Of a stretch of DNA of 64,000 bases, positions 33,674 through 64,000 are shown piece by piece. The stretch is taken from IMG/VR virus record IMGVR_UViG_3300009103_001934, positions 114,488 to 178,487 of that record; one strand, given 5' to 3'. This DNA is from a virus. Both the position numbers and the translations under genes were made by a program. Under the pieces are notes generated by a model, which was not told the origin of the DNA, made no database searches, and saw only the letters and a list, made by a program, of their open reading frames with translations. Numbering within the stretch: the stretch's first letter is position 1; every line of letters starts with the position of its first letter.

Positions 33674-33677
33674 TATT

Positions 33678-35504
33678 ATGTCCAGAAATAGAATTATACA
33701 TAATGTCCAAGAGGTCCTTGTTGGTTCTCCAGACGGTGAAGATGATGCAATCGTAACGGGAATAATTGGGCATCAAATTTTAAAAAGATTAAACCTCGTT
33801 CAGTCTTTTAATTATACCGTCGGCACTAAAACAAATACGGCTGATGTCTTAGGAAAATCTGCTCCCATAGCGGAAAAAGTAGATCGGCCTCCGGACATAA
33901 CATTAGATTTAAGCTATTATTTAGACGGAGTGAACAACGAAAAAAGGTTAGGGCTCACATGCGCAAATGGAGCAACTACAACAGACCTTTGGAATAAAAA
34001 TATAATTCACGAAATAACTGATAATTCAAGAGATAAAGACAAAAGGAATATATATCTTATAGTTAATAAAAATGCTCAAGATATAAATAATCCGACGAAA
34101 GACTACCCTAGAGTAGACTACATGAATGACTCTACGCTCGAAACCCAGAAGGGCGATTTAATTAATCCAGAAAGTACGGGATATGGAGTGGTAATTTTTC
34201 AAAATTGTTATTTAGACTCTTACTCATTAAATGTTGAACCGGGATCTATGCCTCTTGTAAATATTAGTTATGTCGCAGATAACATAGTAGCTTACGCTTC
34301 TGGGAGTGGAATTAATATTCCTTATTTGGATTCGAAAAAGGGAGAGGTAACGGATACTGTTGCTAGTGTTTATACTTCAGATTTTTACAGCGACACCGTA
34401 AGACTTCAATCCGCAGGAAGCGCAATTGAAGGTTGGACGCCCAGTGATGGAGAGATATCTTGGGGCATAACAAGTTACAACGGAGAAACTTATCCTCTAA
34501 AAGTTATATTTAGTACAACTAACGGCGGCCAAGATAATAGTAGTGGCCATTATACTTATAAAGACTTTCTAACTGTAGGAAAAAAATATAGGATAACAGG
34601 AAAAGTATACATCAATTCTAGCAATAGCAAAGTGAATGTCGTCGGAATTGACAATTATATTCCCGGAAACCAAGCAACAATAAAAGACATTACCACCAAA
34701 GGAGAATGGGTTAGTTTCGATGAAGAATTTACGGCTGTTGGATCTGTCCTATATTTCTGGGCAAAAGAAGGTACGGGAGACTATACTTTTCAAATCACTT
34801 CTGGAAGTGACGAATTTGCAATTAAAGATATTGTAGTAACAGAAATCAAAGAATTCATTATACCAAGACATTTTAAAAATATTTCAAATACGGACACGCT
34901 TGACTTTAAGAGTCTTGAGATAGACAGTGGCACCGAAAGGGAAGCTTTAAAGTCTAATAATATTGAATTTACTTTATCTCCGGAAAGCGAGAACGGTATA
35001 GCTTTTTATAAAGATACGGTTCAGTCTTGTAGTATCGATTTTTCATTAGAGAGAGAAAATATAAATCTCTTTGCACATAATTTATATTCCGATCGACTCC
35101 CTGAATTTCCCGTAGAAGTATCCATGTCGGTAGATCTTTTATCGAAAGAAACCTTAACGGGTTCTTTTTTAACTAACGTAGACGAAAACACTTATTATAA
35201 TGCGACTATAGATTTTAAAAATGAAAGTGGAGAAATCGCAGCGAGGTACAGCTTATCTAAGGCTAAATTAAAATCCACCTCGCAAGACTCTTCAGTACGG
35301 GAGAATAAAACTGCGTCACTTAATCTCAAAAGCTATATGAATTTCGAAGATAACGATAGGGGACTGTTCGTCAGCGGGAAGGTCCTAGGCTTAGTCGTAA
35401 ACATATTAAATGAAGATCAAAGTACACCACCAGAGGGGCCGGAGTACGTTTTAAATGACGATGGGGAGATATTAAAAGCGACCGTAGGGAATCCTCAATT
35501 TTAA
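33678..35504 (+). CDS. Virion structural protein with carbohydrate-binding-like insert
   Basis: This 608-residue protein is beta-rich. Residues about 1-215 and 400-590 look like one fold (SFNYTVGTKTNTADVLG ... SYSLNVEPGSMPLVNISYVA ... TLSPESENGIAFYKDTVQSC). Residues about 230-390 (SDTVRLQSAGSAIEGWTPSD ... YRITGKVYINSSNSKVNVVG) resemble a jelly-roll carbohydrate-binding module inserted into it. A tail-tube or neck-type protein with a decoration domain would fit, but the family is not recognised. It lies 4 nt after portal. Confidence 0.6.
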   Translation: MSRNRIIHNVQEVLVGSPDGEDDAIVTGIIGHQILKRLNLVQSFNYTVGTKTNTADVLGKSAPIAEKVDRPPDITLDLSYYLDGVNNEKRLGLTCANGATTTDLWNKNIIHEITDNSRDKDKRNIYLIVNKNAQDINNPTKDYPRVDYMNDSTLETQKGDLINPESTGYGVVIFQNCYLDSYSLNVEPGSMPLVNISYVADNIVAYASGSGINIPYLDSKKGEVTDTVASVYTSDFYSDTVRLQSAGSAIEGWTPSDGEISWGITSYNGETYPLKVIFSTTNGGQDNSSGHYTYKDFLTVGKKYRITGKVYINSSNSKVNVVGIDNYIPGNQATIKDITTKGEWVSFDEEFTAVGSVLYFWAKEGTGDYTFQITSGSDEFAIKDIVVTEIKEFIIPRHFKNISNTDTLDFKSLEIDSGTEREALKSNNIEFTLSPESENGIAFYKDTVQSCSIDFSLERENINLFAHNLYSDRLPEFPVEVSMSVDLLSKETLTGSFLTNVDENTYYNATIDFKNESGEIAARYSLSKAKLKSTSQDSSVRENKTASLNLKSYMNFEDNDRGLFVSGKVLGLVVNILNEDQSTPPEGPEYVLNDDGEILKATVGNPQF

Positions 35505-35506
35505 AA

Positions 35507-35515
35507 GTGTAATAT
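35507..35515 (+). promoter_or_regulatory. GTGTAATA motif (candidate phage promoter)
   Basis: GTGTAATAT, followed by AAGGAAG, lies just before the ATG at 35527. Confidence 0.55.
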
Positions 35516-35526
35516 AAGGAAGAAAA

Positions 35527-35946
35527 ATGGCACAGAGTACAAAATTAAAAGATCTAGATAAAGTAATCATCATGGGTAAGGTCGGTATTGGAGATACACA
35601 ACCCGCAGACCGATTGGTTTTAAAGCCGGACGCGAATGGAAACTCCACAATTCGCGTAGACCATAGTAATGACGGCAACGGCGTAAGATTTACCTCAATT
35701 GATAACGCGGGATACAAGGCGGGAATTTATTGGAACAATTCTGGCGGGCTAGAAAAATGGAGAATAATCGCAGATCCTAATGGAGATAATACCGGAAATT
35801 TACAAATTAGAGCATATTCAAATACCATAACTGCAATTGAATTAACACAAAACGGTGAAATAATTATGCCCAATTTACCTACGGAAGAGCCTGATACTAC
35901 AGGGGCCATTTGGAACGATGGAGGCACTTTAAAGATTAAAAGCTAG
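35527..35946 (+). CDS. Fibre-like virion protein
   Basis: This 139-residue protein, with KVGIGDTQPADRLVLKPDAN, STIRVDHSND and WNDGGTLKIKS, has the short repeated beta strands and the VGIG..P signature seen in phage fibre and structural proteins. It is probably a small virion component. An AAGGAAG ribosome-binding site precedes it. Confidence 0.65.
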   Translation: MAQSTKLKDLDKVIIMGKVGIGDTQPADRLVLKPDANGNSTIRVDHSNDGNGVRFTSIDNAGYKAGIYWNNSGGLEKWRIIADPNGDNTGNLQIRAYSNTITAIELTQNGEIIMPNLPTEEPDTTGAIWNDGGTLKIKS

Positions 35947-35953
35947 TTATACG

Positions 35954-35961
35954 GTGTAACT
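35954..35961 (+). promoter_or_regulatory. GTGTAACT motif (candidate phage promoter)
   Basis: GTGTAACT lies a few nucleotides before the GTG start at 35968. Confidence 0.45.
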
Positions 35962-35967
35962 ATATAT

Positions 35968-36156
35968 GTGCTAACCTATCCAGAAATTCGAGGCGTCTTG
36001 GCCGAAATGGAGGCAGAATTTAAGGAGTCTGCAGAAAAGCCTCAACAAGAATCGTTTTCTAAAAACGCTATTTTTGTCTTAGCTATGGTTGACCGTAGGC
36101 TTGGAAAAAGACTCCAAGCAAAGGTAGCTAAGAGTAAACAAAAATTCTTTTTTTAA
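35968..36156 (+). CDS. Small hypothetical protein, GTG start
   Basis: This 62-residue protein is helical and basic at its C-terminus (RRLGKRLQAKVAKSKQK). It uses a GTG start next to the GTGTAAC motif. No family is recognised. The stop lies 2 nt before the next ATG. Confidence 0.6.
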   Translation: MLTYPEIRGVLAEMEAEFKESAEKPQQESFSKNAIFVLAMVDRRLGKRLQAKVAKSKQKFFF

Positions 36157-36158
36157 TT

Positions 36159-36611
36159 ATGAAAAACCTACTACTTAAATTTAAAGGCTTGCTCGGCTCC
36201 GTATGGAGTCGCGTATTGAATCATTATATTACTGTTTGCGCCGTATTAATTGTATCTATATGTTTCTTGGGAAATACATTAAGGATTCAAGTAGATTATG
36301 AAAAACAACTGTTAGATTTAGAAAAAAATCATATTGAAGCGATGGGGTTGATAGAAGAGCAAGCGGTAGTTATAACTGAGCAAAACGAGGGCCTTGAAGA
36401 CCAAAGTGGTCTCATACAGGAACAAGGAGCTTTAATCAATAGGCTGATAGGTATAGTTAATGAGCAAAAGAGTATTATTCATTATCAAGGGCAAATCATT
36501 CAAGAGCTAATGAAAAGACTCAGAGATAACGGGCTTTTACCTAAGGCCCCGAACAAGGACAGGAGCGACGCGAATTGGATTCTCTATGAAAGACCTTCGG
36601 ATACTCAATAA
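36159..36611 (+). CDS. Membrane-anchored coiled-coil protein, i-spanin candidate
   Basis: This 150-residue protein has an N-terminal transmembrane segment (about 24-42, YITVCAVLIVSICFLGNTL) followed by a long coiled coil with QE/EQ repeats (ITEQNEGLEDQSGLIQEQGA). This is the topology of an inner-membrane spanin (Rz-like). Small lipoproteins that could be the outer-membrane partner lie 0.8-1.5 kb downstream. If true, it would help disrupt a Gram-negative outer membrane at lysis. Confidence 0.6.
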   Translation: MKNLLLKFKGLLGSVWSRVLNHYITVCAVLIVSICFLGNTLRIQVDYEKQLLDLEKNHIEAMGLIEEQAVVITEQNEGLEDQSGLIQEQGALINRLIGIVNEQKSIIHYQGQIIQELMKRLRDNGLLPKAPNKDRSDANWILYERPSDTQ

Positions 36612-36867
36612 AACCAACGTTCACTACTGGAATAAAAAAAAGACAGACTGGGCTGTTCAGGATAAAGACGGATACTGGTGGATAATCCCCGGGTCTGAGA
36701 TGGCGGAAACGAGGCTTGATAAAAACAAAAAGATGAAGATGCCGTCAAAAAAGAAAATACGCCAATCCTCTGTCAGGGCGTCTTTAGAAATTATGTTGTG
36801 GATTATTTTTGCTTCTCTAGTCGGCGTGAGTTTTGCTTTAAACGTAATCTATTATTTATTAAAATGA
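36586..36867 (+). CDS. Small membrane protein
   Basis: This 93-residue protein has a basic, aromatic N-terminal part (NKTNVHYWNKKKTDWAVQDK) and a C-terminal transmembrane helix (IMLWIIFASLVGVSFALNVI). It overlaps the preceding gene by 26 nt and the next by 4 nt. It sits inside the lysis-like cluster and could be a holin or membrane partner; this is not shown by sequence. Confidence 0.6.
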   Translation: MKDLRILNKTNVHYWNKKKTDWAVQDKDGYWWIIPGSEMAETRLDKNKKMKMPSKKKIRQSSVRASLEIMLWIIFASLVGVSFALNVIYYLLK

Positions 36868-37385
36868 ATTTAATTAAAAAGCCAGCTTGGATTTTAGCTT
36901 TGATGTTAGCTTTAGGACCAATACCGGGGTGCGCTTTATTCGACAGGCACCAAAAAAATTCAGAAGGATATTACGAAAGACACTTCTGGGCGTGTGGGCC
37001 CATAGCCTTGGAAAAGGCCTTCTCGAAGAAATATGAAAGACGAGGTATTGCTTATTGCGTAAGCAGAGAAGAATTAAGCAAGCAGATCCAAGATTATGGA
37101 ATGCTTAGAAAAGAGCTACTTTCTTATTTCGATAAAGAAGCCGTGGGCATTACTTGGCCGTCAGAAATTAAAAAGCTTGCAAGGAAGCATGGATTCGATG
37201 TTACAAAGATAGACGATATAAACTCTTTGGATTCAAATGAAGATATTGCAATTGTTTTAATTCATGGTAAATTTTTTAGCAAGCAGTATCACTGGTTGGT
37301 ATATCCACTGGATGACGTTAAAAATTTTTATGGGAAAAAAACAGTAATTGACGTCATATACTTGTTAAAATGGAAAGGAGAATAA
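36864..37385 (+). CDS. Lipoprotein with C39-like cysteine peptidase domain
   Basis: This 173-residue protein has a lipoprotein signal peptide with lipobox LGPIPGC (Cys23) and a papain-like C39-type domain: FWACGPIALEKAF with catalytic Cys44 and YHWLVYPLDD with the His-Asp pair. C39-like peptidases cut peptides after Gly-Gly or act on other short substrates. A secreted, membrane-anchored peptidase is unusual in a virion gene block. The ATG at 36864 is chosen because it directly precedes the signal peptide; an upstream in-frame start lies inside the previous gene. Confidence 0.7.
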   Translation: MNLIKKPAWILALMLALGPIPGCALFDRHQKNSEGYYERHFWACGPIALEKAFSKKYERRGIAYCVSREELSKQIQDYGMLRKELLSYFDKEAVGITWPSEIKKLARKHGFDVTKIDDINSLDSNEDIAIVLIHGKFFSKQYHWLVYPLDDVKNFYGKKTVIDVIYLLKWKGE

Positions 37386-37389
37386 AATT

Positions 37390-37527
37390 ATGAAAAAATT
37401 ATTAGCACTTTTTGCCGCAGTACTATTCATGGGCTGCAATTGGGGTTCGAGTGTCTGCTCTTGTGGGGTAGATTGCTGCGAGTCTGGTAATTGCTCTACA
37501 GTTGATTGTAATTGTGCCTGTAAGTGA
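37390..37527 (+). CDS. Cysteine-rich mini-lipoprotein (45 aa)
   Basis: This short ORF encodes a signal peptide MKKLLALFAAVLFMGC (lipobox FMGC) and a mature part with eight further Cys (SVCSCGVDCCESGNCSTV). It starts 4 nt after the C39-like gene. A candidate o-spanin or a metal/disulfide-rich surface peptide; the function is unknown. Confidence 0.65.
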   Translation: MKKLLALFAAVLFMGCNWGSSVCSCGVDCCESGNCSTVDCNCACK

Positions 37528-49737: not shown

Positions 49738-50094
49738 ATGGCTGACGAAAGAACATGGAACAAAAAGAAGAAAATAGAGGAAATAGCCAACTATATTATA
49801 AATAATATTACCATGGCTGAAGTTACCCATATTTTGATAGAAAGAGCCACGGAAACAGCAACAGAAATAGTAGAAAATGATTTGCCAGCAGAGGAGTATA
49901 GGGCGATCATCTTTTACAAGAAAAAAAGGAAAAAAAATAACTCTAAATTAATTAATAATATCAAAAACTCAGTTAACTCATTTTGGAGTACTGTAAAGTC
50001 AAAATTTACTAAAAAAGAAGAAGATCCATTATCTAAATTAATTAAACGAGACGGATTCACCACCAAGAAGACAAGAGACGAAGATGGCACATAG
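49738..50094 (+). CDS. Small basic hypothetical protein
   Basis: This 118-residue protein has a helical N-terminal half ([20 protein letters not shown]) and a Lys-rich second half ([20 protein letters not shown]). It overlaps the first collagen-like fibre gene by 11 nt and could be a small partner of it. No family is recognised. Confidence 0.65.
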
Positions 50095-51103
50095 AAAAAA
50101 TTTATTTTTAGGTAACATTCTCGGCGCTACGGGACCCACAGGGCCTTCGGGGCCGACCGGGCCCTCGGGGCCGAGCGGAGCCACGGGACCTGCGGGAGGT
50201 CCCACGGGCCCTACCGGGCCGACCGGGGCCACGGGACCTATTGGTCCGACAGGCGTTCGAGGCGTTTCGGGTTATGGATTCGTTACTTCTTCCAGCGACT
50301 CCATAGACCTTGATGCCGCTTCCCTTGGTACATCAATAACAAAAAACATAGAGTCAGGATTAGCGTACCAAGCGGGCACGAGGATAAGATTCTCAAGCGA
50401 GAATTCTTCTGACTGCTTTTTTGAAGGAAAGGTACTTTCTTATACGCCCGCATCTGAAAACATTACTCTTTATATAGATTATATAAAGGGCACGTGCGCA
50501 GACGCGCAGTGGAATGTTAACCTAGCGGGAGAAGTGGGAGCGACGGGCCCTGAAGGGGCGACCGGGCCCGATGGAAGAATACTCAATACAAATTATGATA
50601 AACAATTAACATATAATGATAATGGCTCGTTAAGTTATGCGGGAGGAGTATATGATAAGAGTAATGAATATTTTGCGCTAGGTCATTTATCTCCAGAATG
50701 TATTTTAGATGTAAGTGGTAATTCAAAATTCAGAGGAAACGTAAATATTACTGGAAACTTATATGTTTCTGGACTAGGAGAATTAATTGTCGATGACTTG
50801 GCTGTTGCTCAACATAACACGGCTACTTCTGGTTACTTGGTTACAGATCCGGACAACACTGGCGTATCGATTAAATGTATTGTACCCAAAATAGAATATG
50901 AAGAATTTACGGGAGATGGAATGATCAGTGAATTTATTTTGTCTACGGCCTGCAAAGGTCCGGAGTGGCTCATCATATGGGATAGTTACGCTGGAACCCC
51001 TCGTTCTCCTACTGAATATAGTGTTAATGGGTCAACGATAACTTTTCTTGATCAACAATCTTTACCCATGGGCAAATTAACCGTTAGGCATATTATACTG
51101 TAA
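50084..51103 (+). CDS. Collagen-like fibre protein, copy 1
   Basis: This 339-residue protein opens [20 protein letters not shown], a run of Gly-x-y triplets (about 15 triplets), then a globular beta domain ([20 protein letters not shown]) and a second short collagen run ([13 protein letters not shown]), ending with a fibre-tip-like region. The same N-terminus occurs in the genes at 52997 and 53929. Triplet repeats would form a trimeric collagen-like stalk with the N-terminus attached to the tail. One-nt spacing to the next gene. Confidence 0.85.
50108..50225 (+). repeat. Collagen-coding repeat shared by three fibre genes
   Basis: The stretch starting TTAGGTAACATTCTCGG and encoding [16 protein letters not shown] recurs at about 53009 and 53946; each copy continues in GGN-rich triplets. 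Nucleotide identity between the copies at 50.1 and 53.9 kb is high. Confidence 0.85.
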
Positions 51104-52995
51104 TGGCAAAAAAAATATTCAGAGCAGAAAAAATAAAAGCCGATGAAATATGCGGGATAACTGGTAATTTTGTCGTTGATGGTAATGTAATAGCTAGCGG
51201 GGGATATGTACACGCTCAGACATATGTAAGCGGAGCTACTGGATATTTCGGAACTCTCCACGCAGATAATTTTGAACAAAATCAAGACTTAGTTTACGCT
51301 TTTAGATTCGGAGGACCCCCGATAAATGTGCCGAGTAGGCTCCCAGTTATGACCGCTACGGGTTTGAGGCTAACCGGTTGCGGCCCCGGGCAAGAAGCTC
51401 TTCCCGCTAACGGACACGTACCATATTGGTGTGATGTGTCAGAAGATCAATCTACATGGCCTGTTACTTTTGGGTTTACTGGCCTAGCTTCAGGACACAA
51501 TTTAGTTTTCGTAGAAGATCCCAGTTCATTTCCAATTGGAGAACACATTATAATTAACCCCGGAGGATTATATGGAGACGGCATTCCTCAAGAAGAGCAT
51601 ACAGTTATAGATTCAACTTATTATTGGCCCACAGGCTGTTGTAACTCTCAGGTTAGTGGATACTATAACGCCGGAAACGACGGCATATTGCATACCGATA
51701 CCATAAGTGGCGGTTATAATTTTATTAAAGGAGATCACGTAAAAATTTCAGGCTCAGAAACGGTATATACTATTACTCAAACTGGGTCGAGCGTAACAGA
51801 AGGAATTAGAACTTTAGATTTTGCTCCGGTCTTACAAGAAAATGCTTTAGACAGCGGATGCATATGCTTGGTTCAACCCACGCTACTTTTAGAAGATAAA
51901 TTACAAAATGATTATCCAACGGGAACGAAAATAGCAAACGTATTTCCTAGGACAAGCACTACGGTAGCAAAAGATAGCTGCCTGCTTAATCTTGATGGGC
52001 ATCTTGATCCTTGGTATTCAAACGCAGACCCCTATTGGGATAAGACTGTGTTAATTTTACAGTCTACCGGAGCTCATGGATCTATTAAGTTCTGTGATTC
52101 GTCTCCAGTTCTTCATTTAGTAACAGGTTTTGGAGACGTACATCAATCAAATGTACAAAGTAAATTTGGACATTCTATCTACTTCGATGGGAATGGAGAC
52201 TATTTAACTATCGGCGAAGACTCTGCGGGTTCTTTAGACCTTGACGCTAATCCATTCGCAATCGAATTTTGGTTTTATACCACTGGGCACAATTATATTG
52301 ATCCTATTACGTTATTACCTTCTTCTGGGACAATTTTATCAAAGGGATCAGTGGGTACAGATCTTTATGAAGACTTTAGTGTATTCTACGGCTCTGGCGA
52401 AAAAATTCACGTTCATGGATTAAATCAGGCCAATAGCGGGTTGGCCGCGGTATCAACGAACACCCTTGCTCTGGACACGTGGCATCATATTGCTATAGTA
52501 AGGGAGGACGCTACGCCTAATCAGATGAAGCTATACGTTAATGGTTCTGAAGAGGCCGCTTGGGCGAAAACTAATACAGTATATAATAGCACAAGGCCCC
52601 TTTACGTAGGCAAAAATGAATACAACTTAGATCAACCAACTGATTATTTTAAAGGGTACGTAGAAGAAGTAAGAATAACTAAGGGTGTTCCTCGTTACGA
52701 AGATAAAGATCGATTCACTACGTCAAATACTTTTGTTGTTCCGACTAGCCGGGCAGCCATGCCTCCGTTCAATAAGTATGTCGCGGCTAATTATGGGTGT
52801 ATAAATCAAATATGCTATAATACCCAATATTTATATTTAGAGACTTTTACTGGAATGGGGAGGTGGATGGCGACGGGCTATAGAGAGTGGTTCGTGGGAG
52901 AGTCCGGCATCGAAGTTCACATAACTGGCGCCCCTCATGGAACGGTTATCCCTAATATATTAACTCTCTCATACCCACACAATTTACCAACTTAA
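51103..52995 (+). CDS. LamG-domain fibre protein
   Basis: This 630-residue protein has an N-terminal fibre-like stretch (GNFVVDGNVIASGGYVHAQT) and a laminin-G/concanavalin-type jelly roll at about 345-545: YFDGNGDYLTIGEDSAG, NPFAIEFWFYTTGHN, TWHHIAIVRED, MKLYVNGSEEAAW and GYVEEVRITKGVPRY. LamG domains bind glycans, fitting a receptor-binding role. It sits in the fibre operon between collagen-like genes. Confidence 0.85.
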   Translation: MAKKIFRAEKIKADEICGITGNFVVDGNVIASGGYVHAQTYVSGATGYFGTLHADNFEQNQDLVYAFRFGGPPINVPSRLPVMTATGLRLTGCGPGQEALPANGHVPYWCDVSEDQSTWPVTFGFTGLASGHNLVFVEDPSSFPIGEHIIINPGGLYGDGIPQEEHTVIDSTYYWPTGCCNSQVSGYYNAGNDGILHTDTISGGYNFIKGDHVKISGSETVYTITQTGSSVTEGIRTLDFAPVLQENALDSGCICLVQPTLLLEDKLQNDYPTGTKIANVFPRTSTTVAKDSCLLNLDGHLDPWYSNADPYWDKTVLILQSTGAHGSIKFCDSSPVLHLVTGFGDVHQSNVQSKFGHSIYFDGNGDYLTIGEDSAGSLDLDANPFAIEFWFYTTGHNYIDPITLLPSSGTILSKGSVGTDLYEDFSVFYGSGEKIHVHGLNQANSGLAAVSTNTLALDTWHHIAIVREDATPNQMKLYVNGSEEAAWAKTNTVYNSTRPLYVGKNEYNLDQPTDYFKGYVEEVRITKGVPRYEDKDRFTTSNTFVVPTSRAAMPPFNKYVAANYGCINQICYNTQYLYLETFTGMGRWMATGYREWFVGESGIEVHITGAPHGTVIPNILTLSYPHNLPT

Positions 52996-52996
52996 T

Positions 52997-53929
52997 ATGG
53001 CTAATTTATATCTAGGTAACATTCTCGGAGCCACCGGTCCTACGGGCCCAAGCGGCCCTGTAGGGCCTTCCGGGGTCACGGGGGCTACGGGCCCAGCGGG
53101 CTCTCCCGGAGGCGCCACAGGGCCTTCTGGGGCCACTGGAGCCACAGGACCGAGCGGGCCAGCAGCGCCTTTATGTAATGGAACATCTGTGGATTATCTT
53201 GATCTACTAAGTGACACAACATCAGTTGGATCTACTGTTAGTCTAACGACCCAATTAGACAAATGTTGGACAGTCGGCCAACACGTTATGATTACGTCTA
53301 ATGCTGATAATAGTCAATTTTTGGTGGGATCCATAGTTTCTTATATAAATTATACTCTTACGCTTGACATCGTATATCGACAGGGAATAGTCAATCACAA
53401 CTCTTGGCTTATTAATCTTAGTGGTCCCGTAGGCGCAACTGGGCCCGTGGGAGTAGCTATAGCTGTTGATGCAGACACAATCAATTATTTTTCGGATGAT
53501 ATAGCGGGTGGATATCTCTGGACTGGAACTTGCGGTATCAGTGGGAACGATTTTAACGCTATTGATGACACCTCAAGTACGGCTTTCGCTGTTTCTTTTT
53601 CTGGAGATAACGGGGTCAGCCTTAATCCTGTCTTAAAAATAAATTACCAAGGAAATAGAACAATAATTAATAAATATTATCTTCATTTAGGTAGTGATGA
53701 AGATGTAAAATATGCGCCGAAGTATTGGCATATTGAAGCCTCAAACGATGATACTATTTGGACCACTTTGGATACAAGAGCAAATCAAAATTTTATAATA
53801 GGAAAATTTAATTATAATTTCGCTAACGGAGATCAGTATCAATATTATAGAATGAGTTTATTATCTGGAGAAGAAACTGTATATCATAAAGCTAGAATAA
53901 GTCATTTAGATTTTGTAACACAACAATAA
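52997..53929 (+). CDS. Collagen-like fibre protein, copy 2
   Basis: This 310-residue protein repeats the N-terminus [20 protein letters not shown], with about 17 Gly-x-y triplets, then a copy-1-like domain (DLLSDTTSVGSTVSLTTQLD). A distinct C-terminal part (NKYYLHLGSDEDVKYAPKYW, HIEASNDDTIWTTLDTR) resembles an F5/8-type C (discoidin) sugar-binding domain. The shared N-terminus suggests a common attachment point or assembly with copies 1 and 3. Confidence 0.85.
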   Translation: MANLYLGNILGATGPTGPSGPVGPSGVTGATGPAGSPGGATGPSGATGATGPSGPAAPLCNGTSVDYLDLLSDTTSVGSTVSLTTQLDKCWTVGQHVMITSNADNSQFLVGSIVSYINYTLTLDIVYRQGIVNHNSWLINLSGPVGATGPVGVAIAVDADTINYFSDDIAGGYLWTGTCGISGNDFNAIDDTSSTAFAVSFSGDNGVSLNPVLKINYQGNRTIINKYYLHLGSDEDVKYAPKYWHIEASNDDTIWTTLDTRANQNFIIGKFNYNFANGDQYQYYRMSLLSGEETVYHKARISHLDFVTQQ

Positions 53930-54786
53930 TGCCCGTAACACATACATATTTAGGTAATATCTTGGGAGCGACAGGGCCCACGGGGCCTTCGGGACCAACC
54001 GGGCCTTCGGGGCCGAGCGGAGCCACAGGACCTGCGGGGGGACCCACGGGCCCGACGGGCCCCTCTGGTCCTACCGGTCCCAGTGGAATTGCGCTTCTTA
54101 GTCACGGTAATACGACCGACAGTATAGATCTTTCTCATGCGTCAACCGCTGTGGGACAAACAGTTTGTGTTACTACTAATCAAGATAGGGCTTGGGGGAA
54201 CGGCGAATATATAATACTAACTTTACCGGCTGATACCTCTAACTTTTTAGTAGGGTGTGTCACTTCTTATTCGGGCACATCGCTTTGTTTCGAAGTAAAA
54301 TATCGCTCTGGAACTCAAGCTGCTGCTCTTTGGAATATTAACCCAAGCGCGGTACCGGGTCCTAGCGGACCACCGGGAGCGACTGGGCCGATTGGCATCG
54401 CTGGACCCACAGGGCCAGTTGGCGCAGCCTCTCCGCCTTCTTCTAGAGGAGCCACAAATGCTGTAATTAGTTTAGCGGGAGGAACAACAATTTTAGATTG
54501 CGGAGCTACAGAGCTTTTCAGGTGCGATCTAACATCGACCTCGACGCTTAAGCTTAATAATGCGGGTTCTGGTCAAGTTATTTACATTTTGGTTTCCTAT
54601 GCAAATGTTATGGCGGATCTTTCTTGGTCGAATCCTAGTGATGGATCTATATATTGGGAAAACGACACAATTCCATACTCCCCGAGCTTTACGGGTTATA
54701 GTAAACTATATCAATTTATTAAAATATATCACGCTACATCTAATAGTATATACTTAGCTAAGGACTTGGGAGAATTTAACATTTAG
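53929..54786 (+). CDS. Collagen-like fibre protein, copy 3
   Basis: This 285-residue protein starts [20 protein letters not shown] with about 17 triplets, the shared intermediate domain (SIDLSHASTAVGQTVCVTTN), a second collagen run (VPGPSGPPGATGPIGIAGPT) and a different C-terminal domain. At DNA level the first 100 bp match copy 1 closely, indicating duplication or recombination. It ends convergently with the minus-strand glycosyltransferase, overlapping by 11 nt. Confidence 0.85.
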   Translation: MPVTHTYLGNILGATGPTGPSGPTGPSGPSGATGPAGGPTGPTGPSGPTGPSGIALLSHGNTTDSIDLSHASTAVGQTVCVTTNQDRAWGNGEYIILTLPADTSNFLVGCVTSYSGTSLCFEVKYRSGTQAAALWNINPSAVPGPSGPPGATGPIGIAGPTGPVGAASPPSSRGATNAVISLAGGTTILDCGATELFRCDLTSTSTLKLNNAGSGQVIYILVSYANVMADLSWSNPSDGSIYWENDTIPYSPSFTGYSKLYQFIKIYHATSNSIYLAKDLGEFNI

Positions 54787-55900
54787 GGTATTTTTTATTA
54801 AGCCACTCTAAATTTGAGTCGGCTATTTGATAAAAGCCGTCTTCTTTTAAATTATTAATATTATTAAAATATGAACTATACATTTTACTTATAGCTCCTA
54901 GGGAGAAGTTATTTTTTGACCAATACCTACAATCTTTGGGCTTTATATCTTGTATATTTTTAATGGCCCAATAAAAATCATTCATATTTCTACAGCGATA
55001 CCCAGTAACCCCATGAAGATTATTCTCTGCAAAGCATCCCCAGTCGCTAGTAATAATAGGTGTACCACAAAGCATAGCCTCTATAGTCACTCCCCCAAAA
55101 GGTTCTATATAATGCGTGGGTAAAATAAGCGCCTTCGCGTTCTTCATTAATTCTTTTCTTTTTTCTACATCAGCATACCCAACATATTCTACATGACTGG
55201 GTGTCCTGTCGTATCCCATATCCTCCAGATTTCCCTGCCCAGCAAGGACTAACTTGTCTCCAGTTTTTTCTGTAGCCTGAATGGCTATATTTACCCCTTT
55301 AATTTCCGCTATCCTGCCGAGATATAAAACATAATCTTCTTTATTTTCTTTATACTCAAAGTCTTCGAGATCAAAATAATTTGGAATTACCGCGTCAAAC
55401 CAAGCTGGGTGGGCTACTTTATTCTCTCCGTATATCGCATGCATGACTGCATAAGATTCAAAAACTTTGTGAGGAGCAAAAGTCGCCCCCGCGTTATAAC
55501 CTATTCCGGGTTCAATTATGAAACATTTATGTCCGAATTTGTCTGCGACCGCTTGATGGCCGTTACCCCAAAAACATAATATTGCATCACCCTCTTCTAC
55601 CCTACTGTTTAATGCCTCTTCCGCTCTTCGATAAAACGTTTGGTGAGCATAATCATCCGTACCGTGTCTGAAAAACTCTTTTTTCCAATCATATTCTCCA
55701 TATGCGGTATTTAATGCTAAATCGTCTGTAACAGCAACATGTTCGTGACAAATAACCTCTGATTTTTCATGCCCATAATGTATTATTTGATAAAAAGGGC
55801 TCATCATCTTACAAAATTTAAGTACTTTTTGAGTAAAAGCGCATGATAGGTATTCTTTAGAGGTAATTGTGTGGGGAATAGCTAAAACATGTAATTTCAT
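54776..55900 (-). CDS. GT4-type glycosyltransferase
   Basis: This 374-residue GT-B enzyme has the C-terminal donor-binding signature VLYLGRIAEIKGVNIAIQAT, LVLAGQGNLE, ALILPTHYIEPFGGVTIEAM (the E-x7-E motif) and LCGTPIITSDWGCFAEN. It transfers a sugar from an NDP-sugar donor. Located among fibre genes on the opposite strand, it could glycosylate fibres or remodel a host glycan; this is inference. It is divergent from the gene at 55974. Confidence 0.9.
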   Translation of the reverse strand: MKLHVLAIPHTITSKEYLSCAFTQKVLKFCKMMSPFYQIIHYGHEKSEVICHEHVAVTDDLALNTAYGEYDWKKEFFRHGTDDYAHQTFYRRAEEALNSRVEEGDAILCFWGNGHQAVADKFGHKCFIIEPGIGYNAGATFAPHKVFESYAVMHAIYGENKVAHPAWFDAVIPNYFDLEDFEYKENKEDYVLYLGRIAEIKGVNIAIQATEKTGDKLVLAGQGNLEDMGYDRTPSHVEYVGYADVEKRKELMKNAKALILPTHYIEPFGGVTIEAMLCGTPIITSDWGCFAENNLHGVTGYRCRNMNDFYWAIKNIQDIKPKDCRYWSKNNFSLGAISKMYSSYFNNINNLKEDGFYQIADSNLEWLNKKYPKC

Positions 55901-55973: not shown

Positions 55974-56579
55974 ATGTCACATAAAGAATCAGATGCTGCA
56001 TCTTGCAATTCTTACTTTAAATACGGAAAATCTTTTCCCGATAACGTAAGGGATGCCATTTGCGATCTTCCCGAAGTCATAGGAAGCACGGGCCCTACGG
56101 GGCCAGAAGGACCTAAGGGCTCTACGGGAGATATAGGCAATTTTAGTCCAGCTACTTTGGATGATATCTTAGCTGGAAGAAATTCTGATCCGCCGTCCTA
56201 CGTAGATGCTTCAGGCTGGTATCACGGATCTAATCAGTATGCGCCTCTCGTGCAAACTGATACTATATTAGAACAAACTTATTATCCTGACGCTTTGGAT
56301 CATAATATATTTGATTTGACCATAAGTGGCAATTGTGTTTTAGGCACTCCCGTAAACATGAAAAATGGAAGGACCATAAGCGTTGTCGTTAGACAGCACT
56401 TAGCCACACAGGGACTTAATGAATTGAATATGGATCCAGCTTATGAATTCGACGGAGGTTATAATCAGCTAACTTTAACCTCTGGAGCTAAAGACGTAAT
56501 CGTTGCGACAAAAATTAATGATTTTTATTTTTGTACTTTAGCCGTTGATATTAAAACTGGAATAAATACAGCATATTAA
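55974..56579 (+). CDS. Short collagen-like virion protein
   Basis: This 201-residue protein has an N-terminal domain with two Cys (SDAASCNSYFKYGKSFPDNV), a short collagen run (GSTGPTGPEGPKGSTGDIGN) and a beta-rich C-terminal part (NGRTISVVVRQHLATQGLNE). It is related to the collagen-like fibres in style but has a different N-terminus. Probably a minor fibre or neck appendage. Confidence 0.75.
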   Translation: MSHKESDAASCNSYFKYGKSFPDNVRDAICDLPEVIGSTGPTGPEGPKGSTGDIGNFSPATLDDILAGRNSDPPSYVDASGWYHGSNQYAPLVQTDTILEQTYYPDALDHNIFDLTISGNCVLGTPVNMKNGRTISVVVRQHLATQGLNELNMDPAYEFDGGYNQLTLTSGAKDVIVATKINDFYFCTLAVDIKTGINTAY

Positions 56580-56607: not shown

Positions 56608-59600
56608 ATGAGATCTACAGTACAGCCGTTTAGGAGAAACTCTGCTTTGTACAGGGTATATGATGATCTTATTTTATATCTCAAAAGCGAATTAAACTGG
56701 CAAGATCTAAGTTATTATTATCAAGAGGTTATTGAGCCTTCTGGTTTAAATCAAAATATTCTTCCAGATAATCATTTTGTGCCCTTACCGGGGTTTGATA
56801 TAAATCACAAAACTCATTCTTTAATTTCTCTCCATAAAACTAATGTGGCATCGGTTTTCTTTTCTGGGGAAGCGCTTCATGAAAACGGTGATATGATGAG
56901 TGGTCAATCTATTCCCGTAAGTGGAACAGGAGTATATACTACTGGCCCCGAGTTAGATTCCGCTTCCGAGTTTGACTTAAAGAATGATTTCTGTATAGAA
57001 TTTTGGGCTCAATTCAGCGGGGTGCCAGATGCACCCGACCCTTCGTATTTGTTCGATTTTGGTAATATTAAATTTAGTTGTTTAAGTGGAATGCTTAGTA
57101 TAGAAGCTCCAGATTCTGCAGAAAAATATTTTGACTATTATGACCCGGGTTTTATACATGAGCCAGACCTTACTAAGCCGAGCTTAACTAATCGATTTAG
57201 TCATTATGCTATACAAAAAAGAGATGACTATATTCAACTTTTTATTGGCCCCCAAGAGAATGATGGATCGCCGGGACCGATGTTTAAAATCTTAGAAGAG
57301 CCACTTCGTGATAAAAGACTATTGTGGCCGGATAATAAATATCTTATTACGGGCAACTCTGCTCATCCATATTATAATATTAGAACTTTTGGTTCAACTA
57401 TAAGTGGTACAAACTTCTTTACGGGCTGGATGGATGAAATTAAGGTCTGGAAAACGTGGATTTATGATGGGCCAGTTGTCCCGGGTCCATATCCAGAAGT
57501 TAGCGGTATATATCTTGGCTTCGATGATCATCGAGTGGGACGATGTAAGGCTGGCACGGGCCCCGGCACAACGAAGCCCTGCGAAACATTTAATCAAGTA
57601 GACTTGATGAGGCAAAGATTAACCCGACCTCATCAGTATATGCCCTGCTCAACTATCGGTGGATTCCGGGACCAATTCGTTGGTAAAATAGAATTTTTTA
57701 TACAAGTCAAAGCTCCTATTGATCCTAGATATAGTATGCATCGACCACTTCCTTATATAGTCAGATGGTATCACCAAAAAGAATCTGTTGGTCCTCCGGG
57801 AGGTGGCATTAGCACTCAGTTGCCTAGGCCAAGAAAACTAGTTGCTTCTACCGAGTGGGGTATTGGTCGGCGAAGGCAATATGGACAGGGGCACTACACA
57901 TTTAATGAGGGAGGTTTATGTAATTTAATTATAGATCCGCTTACTTATAATGAAAGGGGTATTTATAGCTGCAAGGTTATTTTCGGCGATCCGAATAGGC
58001 CGGTTAATGTAATTGAATCGAAGGGGGTTTATAAAACCACACCCGGAGCGCCTAATCACTATGGAACCAAAGAGATAGCTTTTACATGCGGTTGTATTTC
58101 ATCACAGCAATTATATAATGGGCCGGGGGTATATACGCGGTCAGCCAATTTGTATCATCCGGCGACCACCTGTTATCCTCCCTTGGGTAATGTCGAAATA
58201 TTGTGGATTGATGTCGTACCTACGAAGCCGCCATGGATAACTACAACTGACTGTTTTAAAAAGTGGGCGATAGGAACAGACGCTACAGTGTGTGCTCACA
58301 TGAATAATTTAAAGGCAGACAACTATACTGGCCCGATTACTTGGACTTGGGGTACTGCTGGAAATATACACGCGGGACAAACTGATGCTAAATCTTGTCT
58401 CACGATTCCGAATTTAAGAAAAAATACTAGATTTAAAGTTACTGCTGTAGATGCTGATGGAAAAAAATGGGAAGCACAGTGCGGCGCATTTATTGATTAC
58501 CCCCCCTTGCAGTGCCCGACGATTATTGATTTATTACCCAACGACCACAAAACAAATGAATATACCGTTGATCCTGTTGGCGTAATAAGTCAGGTTAAAC
58601 AAACGAATCAAAGCTGCGAATGGAGAAGAGATATCGATGTTAAACCTGATCAAACCAGTATAGATATAAAACTTGAAATTATAGCTAATGACCCTAATAT
58701 TCCAGATTTACTCACTGGAGGATTAAGATATGAATGGTGGCAAGGAAATCAGTGGGTTAATGGTTTAAGCACTAAAAACGTTACCGTTTCTGAGAATACA
58801 AATGTATGGTACAAATGCAGAGTGGGATATAATAACTATCCCGGTAACGATCCGTCGGGAGTTAGGCAGGAAGCATGGGCGACTTGTTATTTTTATATAA
58901 ATTTTCCAGATTGTAAGGGTCCTTCTGTCGAGTGGGAAGGAATATCTAGCGGGCATCAAATAAGCATGAGTACTTCTTCTTCTAACTGGAAAAAGGCTAA
59001 CTCAGGCAAGGACGAAATAACCGTAAATGTATACGCTTGCTCTGAGGATACAGAAATATGTTTGTATGGGTTTTTTAATAGAAATAACGCAAGCTTTAAT
59101 CATTTACAATACGGTAATCCTAATTGCTCGAGATCATTCGGAGGAACCACTTTACAGGGAGGGGGATACACCTATGACGATGGGCAAGGAGTTGGTGGCG
59201 CTGGTATTAAATCAAGGCAAGGGGGACCTAATGCCTCCCAAAATCCGGCCACTTTCAAAATAGAAGAATATAATGCAGCGCATGATTGTTGGGGGCCTGA
59301 GGCAGACAAACTTATAATTACAAAAGATTTATATAGTCAAGACGATGGGTCGTGGGTAGAGTTAGATTTTATTAATGAGTGTGATATTATTACTAAAAAA
59401 GTAAATTTCAAAGTATTTCAAGAGCCCAAGCCAATTATTCAGGCTATATATCCTAGCAGGTGGTACTGGGGATCGAAACGGAAGTCAACAAGACTTTCTC
59501 TTTATCGTTTTTTACACGTATTTACGTATAACGCAAGTAATCTGCGAACGGGCGTGACTAAGCAGTATAGCGATTATTGGTCTCCCTCTTCAGAAAATAT

Positions 59601-60216
59601 GTCCTTTTTACTAAAGCCTACGACGAGTGGTTGTATGTTCTGGCGTATTAGTCTTAATGGGACTGTTTTATCTGGGTGGAATCATATGCCGGGTGGTTCA
59701 AAGTGCGGGCTTTTAAACTATCCCTGTTTAGTAATTTACAACGACCATGGAATAACCCTTGGGTTCTCTACGACATTCGGGAAGAGAAGCGCAACTTTAA
59801 CTATCGACGGAAAAAAAGCTTGGAACTCTATCGCTTCTAACGTATTTCAAAAGGGTGTTAATAATTTAAAATTAGAAGTATGCAATAATCCTTCGGACAA
59901 AAATAGTGTTCATGCTGGAGACTGTGCTTCGCATGATGTAGAAATTGTTATAGAAGATTCACCAATAATTATTAGCCCAATAAATAATAAGCTCTCTGGA
60001 GTGTTTAATAAACCGGCCCAAACTTGGTGGTGGCGTTGGTGGTGGCCTTGGTATAACCCTTTCTTTAATCCTAATGGTACTCCTCCGAGGATTTATGGAT
60101 TGTTAAAAGGTCAAAATGGCTGGTGGCGCTGGAATTATGCTAATACTAGGCCACCCGGGACAAATTCTATGAATGGCACAAGGATCTCTTTGAGGACTTA
60201 TGTCGCTATGAACTAA
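56608..60216 (+). CDS. Large multi-domain virion protein with LamG-like domain
   Basis: This 1202-residue protein has an N-terminal region leading into a LamG-like domain (about 115-300: LKNDFCIEFWAQFSGVPDAP, MLSIEAPDS, TGWMDEIKVWKTWIYDG). It continues with a series of Cys-containing Ig-like units (ERGIYSCKVIFGD, TVCAHMNNLKADNY, WYKCRVGYNN), and an aromatic-rich C-terminus (WWWRWWWPWYNPF). It would be a long surface adhesin or fibre. Ig-type beta-sandwich repeats are common in phage adhesins. Confidence 0.8.
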   Translation: MRSTVQPFRRNSALYRVYDDLILYLKSELNWQDLSYYYQEVIEPSGLNQNILPDNHFVPLPGFDINHKTHSLISLHKTNVASVFFSGEALHENGDMMSGQSIPVSGTGVYTTGPELDSASEFDLKNDFCIEFWAQFSGVPDAPDPSYLFDFGNIKFSCLSGMLSIEAPDSAEKYFDYYDPGFIHEPDLTKPSLTNRFSHYAIQKRDDYIQLFIGPQENDGSPGPMFKILEEPLRDKRLLWPDNKYLITGNSAHPYYNIRTFGSTISGTNFFTGWMDEIKVWKTWIYDGPVVPGPYPEVSGIYLGFDDHRVGRCKAGTGPGTTKPCETFNQVDLMRQRLTRPHQYMPCSTIGGFRDQFVGKIEFFIQVKAPIDPRYSMHRPLPYIVRWYHQKESVGPPGGGISTQLPRPRKLVASTEWGIGRRRQYGQGHYTFNEGGLCNLIIDPLTYNERGIYSCKVIFGDPNRPVNVIESKGVYKTTPGAPNHYGTKEIAFTCGCISSQQLYNGPGVYTRSANLYHPATTCYPPLGNVEILWIDVVPTKPPWITTTDCFKKWAIGTDATVCAHMNNLKADNYTGPITWTWGTAGNIHAGQTDAKSCLTIPNLRKNTRFKVTAVDADGKKWEAQCGAFIDYPPLQCPTIIDLLPNDHKTNEYTVDPVGVISQVKQTNQSCEWRRDIDVKPDQTSIDIKLEIIANDPNIPDLLTGGLRYEWWQGNQWVNGLSTKNVTVSENTNVWYKCRVGYNNYPGNDPSGVRQEAWATCYFYINFPDCKGPSVEWEGISSGHQISMSTSSSNWKKANSGKDEITVNVYACSEDTEICLYGFFNRNNASFNHLQYGNPNCSRSFGGTTLQGGGYTYDDGQGVGGAGIKSRQGGPNASQNPATFKIEEYNAAHDCWGPEADKLIITKDLYSQDDGSWVELDFINECDIITKKVNFKVFQEPKPIIQAIYPSRWYWGSKRKSTRLSLYRFLHVFTYNASNLRTGVTKQYSDYWSPSSENMSFLLKPTTSGCMFWRISLNGTVLSGWNHMPGGSKCGLLNYPCLVIYNDHGITLGFSTTFGKRSATLTIDGKKAWNSIASNVFQKGVNNLKLEVCNNPSDKNSVHAGDCASHDVEIVIEDSPIIISPINNKLSGVFNKPAQTWWWRWWWPWYNPFFNPNGTPPRIYGLLKGQNGWWRWNYANTRPPGTNSMNGTRISLRTYVAMN

Positions 60217-60217
60217 A

Positions 60218-63200
60218 ATGAGTTGGAAGACTATATATAATTATACAGTTACAGGTAACGGCCCGTATTATTACGGCGCCGATTTACCCAACTCTAGTAA
60301 TTGGAGAATTAATCAGGCTGATGGGGAAATACAAATAAATGAAACTACTCCTGAGGGTAAGTATAAATTTGATATTTGGGTTCAAGACACTAAGGGCGGA
60401 TTTTCTATAGGGTCGCCGCATATGGCTAACGTAAATATCCCCGGAAGAAAAGACGAAAATATAGACGTAGAAGTTATAAGAAATGGAATCGATCCGTTTT
60501 GTAGTCTAGAAAAAATATATGTAGAGTTCACTGATGTTAAAATATATAAAGGAGATTGTACAGAAGGTAAAGTGGGCTGGAGATTGTATGATCAAAATTT
60601 TATTCATGTCAATAGAAACTTCGAGTTAGTAAAAAACGAAGCCCTTTCTGATCCCGCAAACGGTAAGTGCTATTTTGAATATACTGGTTGTAATTATCCG
60701 GTTTATTATGAGCGAAACCATTCCCTTAATAAAAATTGTGATTTTTGTGGGGCAGAATCTAAAGCGGGATATTTAAAAAGCGGTTTTCTATCCGCTTCAT
60801 TAGATAAAGTAGATGCAGATAATAATATTTTTAAGTTAAGGTTCGATGGAAAATATCCAAACGATAATTCTAAAAATAATTTTGCTAACATTTATCATAT
60901 AGATAGATTTTTAAGCGATCCATTTGATGCGCCCAATTTTATAGATGACGATGGTTTACGGGGATTTAAGAATTACCTCGTGGGTTTTGATCCTTTGGGG
61001 ACTTTTGATGGGTCTCAGATTTTAGGGTCGGGGGGTAGGTGTTACATAAGTTACGATTACTGTGACTGCGTAAATGTGGACTGTAACTTACGGACGCCTA
61101 CTCCCTACCCTACTTGTACAGTAAGTTATACGCCCTCTGCCACCGTGTCAGAAACACCGACACCTACAGTTACGTATACCCCCACTCTGACCGAAACAGC
61201 GACCGCGACGTTTACCGTTACGGAAACTGCGCCAAGTAGATTAAATGCGGTTTTGTTCGGCTTGAATCCTTGCGCACTAAATCGTAATGCTCCAAACCCG
61301 TGGGACCGCACTCCTTATACGGGATATTTTGCCCGCTTATTAAAAACAGGAAATGTCGGAGGAGACTGTAGAGCACTGATTGGCGCTGCTCCTTTGGACT
61401 CTAATAATTCTATAGAAAGTTATAAGTTTCCCGGCGCAGACGCGGAGTGCTTTGATTCAAATAATCCGGGACATAACCCGCACAAGTTTGATAATCCTAT
61501 TATTTCTTTTGATATAAATGGAACAGATCCTCAATACTTGGATCATCCTGACAATAACAGATTACTACGAAGAAGAGGCCAACAGGGGGTCGGTCTAATT
61601 CCTGCTCATGATGATTTTTGGAAAGCTTTAAATTATAATAGGGGCCATACAATATTTAATAACCTGACTAATTCCGCATCTTATACTACCTTTGGTGATT
61701 GTTTAAGTTGTATTGGTATAACTCCGAGCGCGACCGCCACGCCTACTGCGGATAGCAGTTGCTTTGCTTTGATTCATTTGACTGGTTGCGCAGGAAATAC
61801 TGCGTCCCAAGGTAATTTATTTTCTATGTTGTTGGACTCCAGTAATGCCTCAAGGTCTTGGAGTACTCTTTTTCAAGGGAAAACTTATAAATTTAGTCGA
61901 GACGGAATTGCTGACGACGGTTGTTTTCAGCAACCACCTTCATCACAGAGAATAGGAAATAAACCCCCGTTGGTCTGTCTCGTTAATGGCGCCCCGCAAT
62001 ATTATGATGGTCCTCCAAATAGAAGGGCTTTAAGGTCTCGGGGTAATTTGGGATTGGGTTTATTAGATCATGATCAGGACGCTTGGGATCAGCTAAATAA
62101 TTGTAGGGGTACAACTGTATATGGTAATTTTAATAGTATTGTAAGTCCTCAAGAATACAATAGTTGTACGCTTTGTTTTGGGCTTACTCATACCGCTACT
62201 GCTACTAAAACTCCAAGCGCCACGGCTACCTTTTCTTCTTCCGTTAGCGCTTCTGAAACGCCTACGGTTACAGAGTCTGCTACTCTTACCCATACGCATA
62301 CAGCAACAAGTACTTCTTCGGATACTCCTACGTTTACAGCATCACATACTCCTACTGTTTCCGCAACCGCTACCCTTACGGTTTCAGCGACCCATACGGA
62401 CTCAATTACGTCTACACCGACGCCCACTATAAGTTATAGCCCGACTGTTACGTCTACTTCTACCAGTACAGTAAGCGCAACCCCCAGTATATCGTCTACA
62501 CCAACGGTTTCATCTAGTCCTACTTTGACTCATACTGCAACCGTTACTCTTTCTGATACGGCAACTCACACTGTTTCGCATACGCCCACTTTAACATTTA
62601 CGCACCCCCTCAGTTCAACGGTAACTGGTACGGTATCGCATACCCCCACGGTTTCGCATACACCGACGTTAACTGGATCTCGTACAGCAACTTCGACCAG
62701 AACAGAAACAGCAACGGTTTCATTTACCCCTACTTTGACTCATACCACAACCGCTACCCTTTCTGATACGCCGACTCATTCAGCTACATTAAGTTATAGT
62801 CCTACGCATACTACAACGAGTACGGCATCTCACACACCGACTATAAGTCATACGCCAACGTATACCGCTTCTCATACGTCTAGCGTTTCTCATACGCCTA
62901 CTATAAGTCATACACGCACTCGGACTCACACTTCTACAGGAACGCATACTGCTACAGGTAGCGTTTCTCATACGCCCACTATGACTAGAACGGCAACTGC
63001 AACCAGTTCGCATACGTCTACATTAAGTCATACGCCTACGTTTACAGGTTCACATACATCTACCGTAAGTCACACGCCAACATATACGGGTTCATATACA
63101 GCAACGATGACTCGTACGGCTTCGGCTACTGTGTCAGCTACATCTACATTTACTGGGACAGCGACAAAAACATCTACGCGTACACTAACTCATACCGTAT

Positions 63201-64000
63201 CTCACACTCCAACTATAAGTCATACTCTTACTGGAACAGTTTCACACACGCCCACCTTGACGCATACTCCTACGGTTACTCGTTCTGCTACTGAAACTGT
63301 ATCAGATACGCCAACCGTTACAGCTTCCCATACAGTTACTGCAAGTCATACACCAACTTATACGGTATCTCACACGCCGACATTAACCGTTACCTTTACT
63401 CCTACGGTTTCTCATACGCCTACTTTAACACGTACCCCAACAGTTACTCGTTCTGGTACTGAAACTATATCGCATACGCCGACTTATACTATATCTGATA
63501 CGCCTACAATATCTCATACTCCGACCTATACCGTATCACATACGCCTACTCATACTGTATCAGATACACCTACGGTATCGCATACACCAACTGTGTCTCA
63601 TACTTTAACTGTAACTCGAACAGTTACAGCAACTGTATCTGGCACATTAACATCAACGGCGTCTTATACGCCTACGATTTCACATACACCGACCTATACG
63701 GTGTCTCATACGCCCACGTTAACTCATTCGGCGACGGCAACGGAAACTGCTACTGGAACAGTTTCTCATACCGACACAGAAACTGTTTCTCATACTCCGA
63801 CAGTAAGTCATACAGTAACTGGTACGATTTCTCACACTCCTACACGTACTGTTACATCTACGATTTCTCATACGCCTACGCTATCTGCTTCCGATACCCC
63901 AACGTTGTCCGCTTCGCATACACCGACTGTAACGTATACAGATCCGCATACTTTGACAGCAACGGGTACGGTTTCTCATACGAGGACTCGTACGCGTACT
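60218..64000 (+). CDS. Giant Thr-rich fibre protein, C-terminus beyond window
   Basis: An uninterrupted frame of 1261 codons starts at the ATG 2 nt after the preceding stop and leaves the window open. It has a beta-rich Cys-containing N-terminal region (about 1-300) and a first Thr-rich linker. Two paralogous Cys-containing modules of about 170 residues follow (61.2-61.7 and 61.7-62.2 kb; both with LR-RG-x-GLGL / DDFWKALN-type ends). From about 62.18 kb a very long Thr/Ser-x dipeptide stretch (SHTPTLTHTPTVTRSATETV type) runs to the end. It is likely a mucin-like or extended fibrous stalk on the virion surface. Confidence 0.85.
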   Translation, partial: MSWKTIYNYTVTGNGPYYYGADLPNSSNWRINQADGEIQINETTPEGKYKFDIWVQDTKGGFSIGSPHMANVNIPGRKDENIDVEVIRNGIDPFCSLEKIYVEFTDVKIYKGDCTEGKVGWRLYDQNFIHVNRNFELVKNEALSDPANGKCYFEYTGCNYPVYYERNHSLNKNCDFCGAESKAGYLKSGFLSASLDKVDADNNIFKLRFDGKYPNDNSKNNFANIYHIDRFLSDPFDAPNFIDDDGLRGFKNYLVGFDPLGTFDGSQILGSGGRCYISYDYCDCVNVDCNLRTPTPYPTCTVSYTPSATVSETPTPTVTYTPTLTETATATFTVTETAPSRLNAVLFGLNPCALNRNAPNPWDRTPYTGYFARLLKTGNVGGDCRALIGAAPLDSNNSIESYKFPGADAECFDSNNPGHNPHKFDNPIISFDINGTDPQYLDHPDNNRLLRRRGQQGVGLIPAHDDFWKALNYNRGHTIFNNLTNSASYTTFGDCLSCIGITPSATATPTADSSCFALIHLTGCAGNTASQGNLFSMLLDSSNASRSWSTLFQGKTYKFSRDGIADDGCFQQPPSSQRIGNKPPLVCLVNGAPQYYDGPPNRRALRSRGNLGLGLLDHDQDAWDQLNNCRGTTVYGNFNSIVSPQEYNSCTLCFGLTHTATATKTPSATATFSSSVSASETPTVTESATLTHTHTATSTSSDTPTFTASHTPTVSATATLTVSATHTDSITSTPTPTISYSPTVTSTSTSTVSATPSISSTPTVSSSPTLTHTATVTLSDTATHTVSHTPTLTFTHPLSSTVTGTVSHTPTVSHTPTLTGSRTATSTRTETATVSFTPTLTHTTTATLSDTPTHSATLSYSPTHTTTSTASHTPTISHTPTYTASHTSSVSHTPTISHTRTRTHTSTGTHTATGSVSHTPTMTRTATATSSHTSTLSHTPTFTGSHTSTVSHTPTYTGSYTATMTRTASATVSATSTFTGTATKTSTRTLTHTVSHTPTISHTLTGTVSHTPTLTHTPTVTRSATETVSDTPTVTASHTVTASHTPTYTVSHTPTLTVTFTPTVSHTPTLTRTPTVTRSGTETISHTPTYTISDTPTISHTPTYTVSHTPTHTVSDTPTVSHTPTVSHTLTVTRTVTATVSGTLTSTASYTPTISHTPTYTVSHTPTLTHSATATETATGTVSHTDTETVSHTPTVSHTVTGTISHTPTRTVTSTISHTPTLSASDTPTLSASHTPTVTYTDPHTLTATGTVSHTRTRTRT
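61118..61235 (+). repeat. First Thr-rich linker in giant fibre gene
   Basis: About 40 codons of (T/S)-x dipeptides (SYTPSATVSETPTPTVTYTP) lie before the first Cys module; a shorter one (ITPSATATPTA) separates the two modules. Confidence 0.8.
62180..64000 (+). repeat. Long Thr/Ser-x repeat region, open at window end
   Basis: Some 600 codons follow a strict (T/S)-x alternation with recurrent SHTPT. The x position is varied (V, H, P, A, L, R, Y, E, G). Codons for the same residues vary freely (ACG/ACT/ACA/ACC, CAT/CAC), so the DNA is not a simple tandem array, although a 6-nt period is visible. Confidence 0.95.

Follow-up and report, generated by a model that had tools for sequence, protein, structure and literature searches.

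Ser/Thr-rich and collagen-like stalks

The Ser/Thr-rich spacers of archaeal S-layer proteins, including the ST linker of SlaB, are O-glycosylated (PMC2913515; PMC6911244), and among the BclA-type glycoproteins the threonine residues in the collagen-like repeats of BclA3 are glycosylated by SgtA, a glycosyltransferase encoded adjacent to BclA3 (PMC7157674). The window (the whole 64-kb stretch of DNA that was analysed, i.e. positions 114,488–178,487, the last 64 kb, of the linear 178,487-bp virus contig G000) encodes a fibre-type protein in which Thr or Ser alternates with other residues over a very long segment. This protein resembles S-layer spacers and mucin-like stalks in that a long Thr/Ser-rich segment of low complexity, here 604 residues, lies beside folded domains, which such segments are thought to space. 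It differs from them as a phage protein with Thr/Ser strictly at every second residue over 600 residues. A repetitive stalk is also the feature shared with collagen-like phage fibres and BclA-type glycoproteins (PMC7157674), and the gene has collagen-like neighbours with an adjacent glycosyltransferase; however, the array gene contains no Gly-x-y repeat, while its neighbours do, and the analogy of the glycosyltransferase concerns these neighbours and not the array. The array gene is taken as a variant of the Ser/Thr-rich stalks and not a new kind of system, and the array itself is probably a selected, extended inter-domain stalk of a fibre protein belonging to the tail module.

Organisation of the array gene

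The contig ends within the array of this gene, which comprises the following parts:

60218–64000, plus strand: fibre-type array gene, ATG start, 1261 codons (1261 aa), 3′ end open and cut by the contig end
60218–61111, plus strand: N-terminal non-repeat region, residues 1–298, ending TPTPYP, common to the counterpart in the collinear record G003
61112–61231, plus strand: short Thr-x array of 40 residues, beginning TCTVSYTPSATVSETPTPTVTYT
61232–61717, plus strand: Cys-containing domain A, residues 339–500, ending CLSCIG, similar to domain B
61718–61747, plus strand: very short Thr-x linker, read from the sequence as ITPSATATPT
61748–62185, plus strand: Cys-containing domain B, residues 511–656, ending CTLCFGL, duplicate of domain A
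62186–64000, plus strand: long (Thr/Ser)-x array, at least 604 residues, from residue 657 to the contig end

Of the interval 60218–64000 given for the gene in the original prediction, about half, 60218–62185, encodes ordinary non-repeat protein except for the short array, and the sustained alternation starts at 62186. Domains A and B share 35.6% identity over 104 aa (E 1.6e-14). These domains and the other non-repeat parts have no significant match in Pfam or among PDB sequences, the non-repeat part as a query matches nothing in phage records or IMG/VR, and no locus with near-identical DNA across the array gene was found.

In the long array (residues 657–1260, 604 codons), Thr or Ser occupies 300 of the 302 even positions and is found just 23 times at odd positions, while 2000 shuffles of the residues give at most 182 Thr/Ser at even positions. 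The T-x-T-x pattern claimed for at least 600 codons is hence confirmed, as is the strong codon variation ascribed to it, threonine being encoded in the array by ACT (75), ACG (68), ACA (54) and ACC (29). The array units have the form S-[H/D/E]-T-P-T-x, with or without one or more additional T-x, and are 6 or 8 residues long, often joined as 14, where the weak autocorrelation of the array has its peak. Tandem units of 18, 24 and 42 nt, which mirror the protein units, are visible in the DNA.

Gene neighbourhood and the virus

The genes upstream of the array gene are as follows:

50084–51103, plus strand: collagen-like fibre protein, with PHROG tail fibre matches
51103–52995, plus strand: Laminin-G-like domain protein (PF13385, E 1e-18)
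52997–53929, plus strand: collagen-like fibre protein that also matches F5/8 C-type weakly
53929–54786, plus strand: collagen-like fibre protein (PF01391, E 7e-9)
54776–55900, minus strand: GT4-type glycosyltransferase (Pfam PF00534, phrog_3408), 70% identical and in the same place in G003
55974–56579, plus strand: short collagen-like protein (GSTGPTGPEGPKGSTG), 56% identical in G003
56608–60216, plus strand: 1202-aa protein directly upstream of the array gene; its G003 counterpart (2020-aa frame, 25–46% identity) is likewise directly upstream of an array gene

The array gene therefore sits in a collagen/LamG/tail-fibre module of a tailed phage with conserved order of neighbours, which bears out its naming as a fibre gene, and from this position its product would be located in the virion. 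The short collagen-like neighbour (55974–56579), used as a search query, yielded no relative. A homologue of the central tail fibre protein J is encoded on the minus strand of the same virus (L002:5429–10501), which very probably has a lambda-like tail tip, as this homologue suggests. The terminase (29788–31614) has at least 598 related viral stretches, a large group made up mostly of uncultivated viruses, and its relatives among isolated phages are at most remote (best about 24–27% identity over about 60%).

G003, one of the terminase relatives, is a 64-kb record collinear with the window. The protein taken for the major capsid protein is 69% identical between the two. The counterpart of the array gene in G003 (L233:4676–8515) is complete with 1279 aa, and the N-terminal regions of the two proteins share 26–27% identity (26.5% over 147 aa, E 6e-11) in an alignment that extends to a common TPTPYP[ST]CTV junction at the start of array 1. 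A two-sequence profile of this N-terminal region retrieved G003 again and nothing else. The arrays of the G003 protein are shorter and Ser-rich, and each lies between Cys-containing domains; the alternation is kept despite a very different composition, and the C-terminal end of the protein is a Cys-containing domain as well.

Downstream of its array gene, G003 contains several small genes followed by the N-terminal part of the tape-measure protein, while the contig G000 opens within the C-terminal part of a tape-measure gene and breaks off within the array gene. According to this gene order and these contig ends, the missing end of the window gene probably lies in an assembly gap that would hold several tail genes. 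By analogy with G003, further domains may follow the window array and make it internal; upstream, domains A and B are seen.

Arrays elsewhere on the contig and in other viruses

A second array gene (contig 33,547–37,455; L003:13547–17455) is located elsewhere on the contig, at a distance of about 140 kb from the window gene. It is complete, encodes 1302 aa and carries two arrays, of 140 and 112 residues, that lie between domains, so that here, as in the G003 counterpart, folded domains flank the arrays on both sides. It is followed by a very long ORF that stays open for at least 2400 codons. The arrays of all three genes, that of the window (E 1e-27), the G003 counterpart and the second array gene, are matched by the profile phrog_15511 (unknown function); in the stretches listed as best, the match falls within or close to the arrays, which is a match of composition and not evidence of common descent.

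IMG/VR was scanned with a pattern of TPT followed by eleven T/S-x units, which matched at least 120 stretches, and at least 78 loci have ORFs in which arrays account for 60 residues or more. Among the matches listed, the longest array has 864 residues, and in 54 of 92 array ORFs at least 50 non-array residues both precede and follow the arrays. Among the same matches, a cysteine lies within 12 residues upstream of 82 of 150 arrays (Fisher p 3e-20) and within 12 residues downstream of 58 of 137 (Fisher p 5e-9), compared with 20% of background 12-mers, the ORFs in these statistics being not fully independent. In the viral loci with TPTN-type arrays (L008–L127), the arrays often lie between Cys-containing stretches, and Thr/Ser at every second residue is common to them, to the window array and to TPT-type stretches on contigs of Chloroflexi and other bacteria. 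Most of the listed IMG/VR arrays are of the TPTN type with a median of 42% Pro at odd positions, whereas the window array is His-rich (S-H-T-P-T), its odd positions being largely His, Pro and Ala besides Val, with about 15% Pro. The His-rich motif by itself has matches in 26 viral stretches as well as numerous bacterial contigs, among which Chloroflexi stand out, the bacterial ones being matched by pattern alone. One terminase relative (L234:7219–17307) encodes a 3362-aa protein in which many SPTPTNTPSNTP arrays are interspersed with Cys-rich and LamG domains.

With the array or the 13-kb region as a query, tblastn and megablast gave no match in phages, low-complexity filtering being one likely reason, and blastn of the array returned nothing beyond chance matches of 38 nt. 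The open-access subset of the literature that was searched contains no description of such arrays in phages, and the strict alternation, the Cys-flanked modular layout and the breadth across environmental phages seem to be undescribed in it.

Glycosyltransferase and glycosylation

It is rather unlikely that the array is a mucin-like stalk, in which a phage or host enzyme would densely O-glycosylate the Thr/Ser residues and thereby stiffen and mask the fibre. The density of Thr/Ser and the TPT motifs fit such a stalk, O-glycosylated Ser/Thr spacers are known from archaeal S-layers (PMC2913515; PMC6911244), and the contig encodes glycosyltransferases, a proximity on which the original prediction had drawn. 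This argument loses weight as relatives of the glycosyltransferase at 54776–55900 in IMG/VR have collagen-like repeats within 10 kb in 19 of 27 loci and Thr-x arrays within 10 kb in none of the 27, some of these loci being near-duplicates; nor does the adjacent family occur in any of 120 Thr-x loci among the matches listed, so that in these loci the family does not accompany the arrays as a dedicated enzyme would. Synechococcus phage S-CAM7 encodes a glycosyltransferase (52% identical) adjoining long collagen-like genes, and the Thr-x pattern has no match in its whole 214-kb record. The window and G003 are exceptions, as they have the glycosyltransferase, collagen-like genes and arrays together. 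A further point against the mucin-like stalk is that an enzyme acting on all Thr/Ser would need no strict i, i+2 spacing.

Considering the co-occurrence with collagen-like genes, the absence of arrays from all 27 loci and the precedent of SgtA and BclA3, the glycosyltransferase is better assigned to the collagen-like neighbours than to the array, although this enzyme, or a different one, may O-glycosylate the array. The GT4-type family co-occurs with collagen-like genes across viral contigs (L390–L423) and in cyanophages, and may modify collagen-like fibres. A search of the contig for a 2OG-Fe oxygenase (PF13640), which could act as a collagen hydroxylase, gave no match.

Fold of the array

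Phage fibres are often beta-structured trimers. The alternation sets all Thr/Ser on one face of a strand, and Val, Ile, Tyr and Thr favour strands, so a regular beta-structure could be envisaged, a beta-solenoid or a trimeric beta-fibre built on the Thr face, which might bind surfaces, ice included. This proposal, part of which was made in the original prediction, appears improbable. A solenoid or TxT surface would be expected to have a fixed coil with constant spacing of turn residues, whereas proline residues of the long array follow each other at mixed intervals of 6, 8, 14 and 22, and the units vary irregularly in length (6, 8 or more residues), leaving no fixed coil length; irregular unit length and frequent proline together argue against a regular solenoid, as does the composition of the odd positions given above. 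The TPTN-type arrays of other phages, with still more Pro at these positions, and the survival of the alternation under a different composition in G003 weaken it as well. The PDB contains no sequence like the array, and no confident fold was obtained, AF2 single-sequence models, one set covering domain B with the array and the other the array by itself, reaching mean pLDDT values of 36.5 and 31.9, which at this level are weak evidence and carry no information either way on the fold.

Selection on the alternating pattern

At the third positions of even codons, variation is close to saturation, with an entropy of 1.91 bits as compared with 0.75 and 0.34 bits at positions 1 and 2. Codon changes were counted in 31 pairs of 42-nt array copies with at most 9 differences each. 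Even codons differ by 102 synonymous changes, 7 Thr/Ser exchanges and no other change, while odd codons differ by 41 synonymous and 74 nonsynonymous changes. All possible single-nucleotide changes of the even codons comprise 868 synonymous, 404 Thr/Ser and 1446 other changes, so that under neutrality about 170 other changes would be expected beside the 102 synonymous ones. The copy pairs reuse overlapping windows and are not independent, so this contrast, though strong, is not an exact test. As changes at even codons are synonymous or exchange Thr and Ser and those at odd codons are mostly nonsynonymous, the pattern is under selection at the protein level, in agreement with what had been claimed for it.

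That the array is a low-complexity DNA expansion, i.e. a slippage product tolerated in a non-essential gene with little selected function, is highly improbable: array length and composition do vary between relatives, the tandem units are visible and Thr codon usage of the array differs modestly from that of background genes (p 1.5e-4), but the expected even-codon changes to other residues are missing altogether and the alternation is kept in the relative, in the second array gene and across IMG/VR.

Proposed role of the array

In the stalk reading favoured here, the (Thr/Ser)-x runs would act as extended stalks that hold small Cys-containing domains apart, in the order N-terminal region, domain A, its duplicate B and, if G003 is a guide, more domains after the array. 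The chain would be beta- or polyproline-like and extended, with Thr/Ser at every second residue keeping it soluble and extended and the proline of TPT blocking strand pairing and aggregation. Fully extended, 604 residues would span an estimated 200 nm or so (at 0.33–0.35 nm per residue), which is an upper bound. The gain or loss of 18-, 24- and 42-nt units would shift the array length, and the reach to the host surface may therefore be tunable.

More tentatively, and with some doubt, Thr/Ser-x arrays might form a widespread stalk class of their own among phage fibres, with material properties particular to it: strictly alternating, extended strands, capped by disulfides and as long as several hundred residues, which evolve by gain and loss of units and serve unrelated environmental phages in much the way that collagen-like repeats do. 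The analysis also corrects the tempting inference from a nearby glycosyltransferase, as this enzyme tracks collagen-like fibres and not Thr-x arrays. If the proposal is true, this stalk type has been missed by standard annotation because low-complexity filters hide the arrays, and environmental phages would commonly build long receptor-reaching appendages from an alternating Thr/Ser strand capped by Cys-containing domains.
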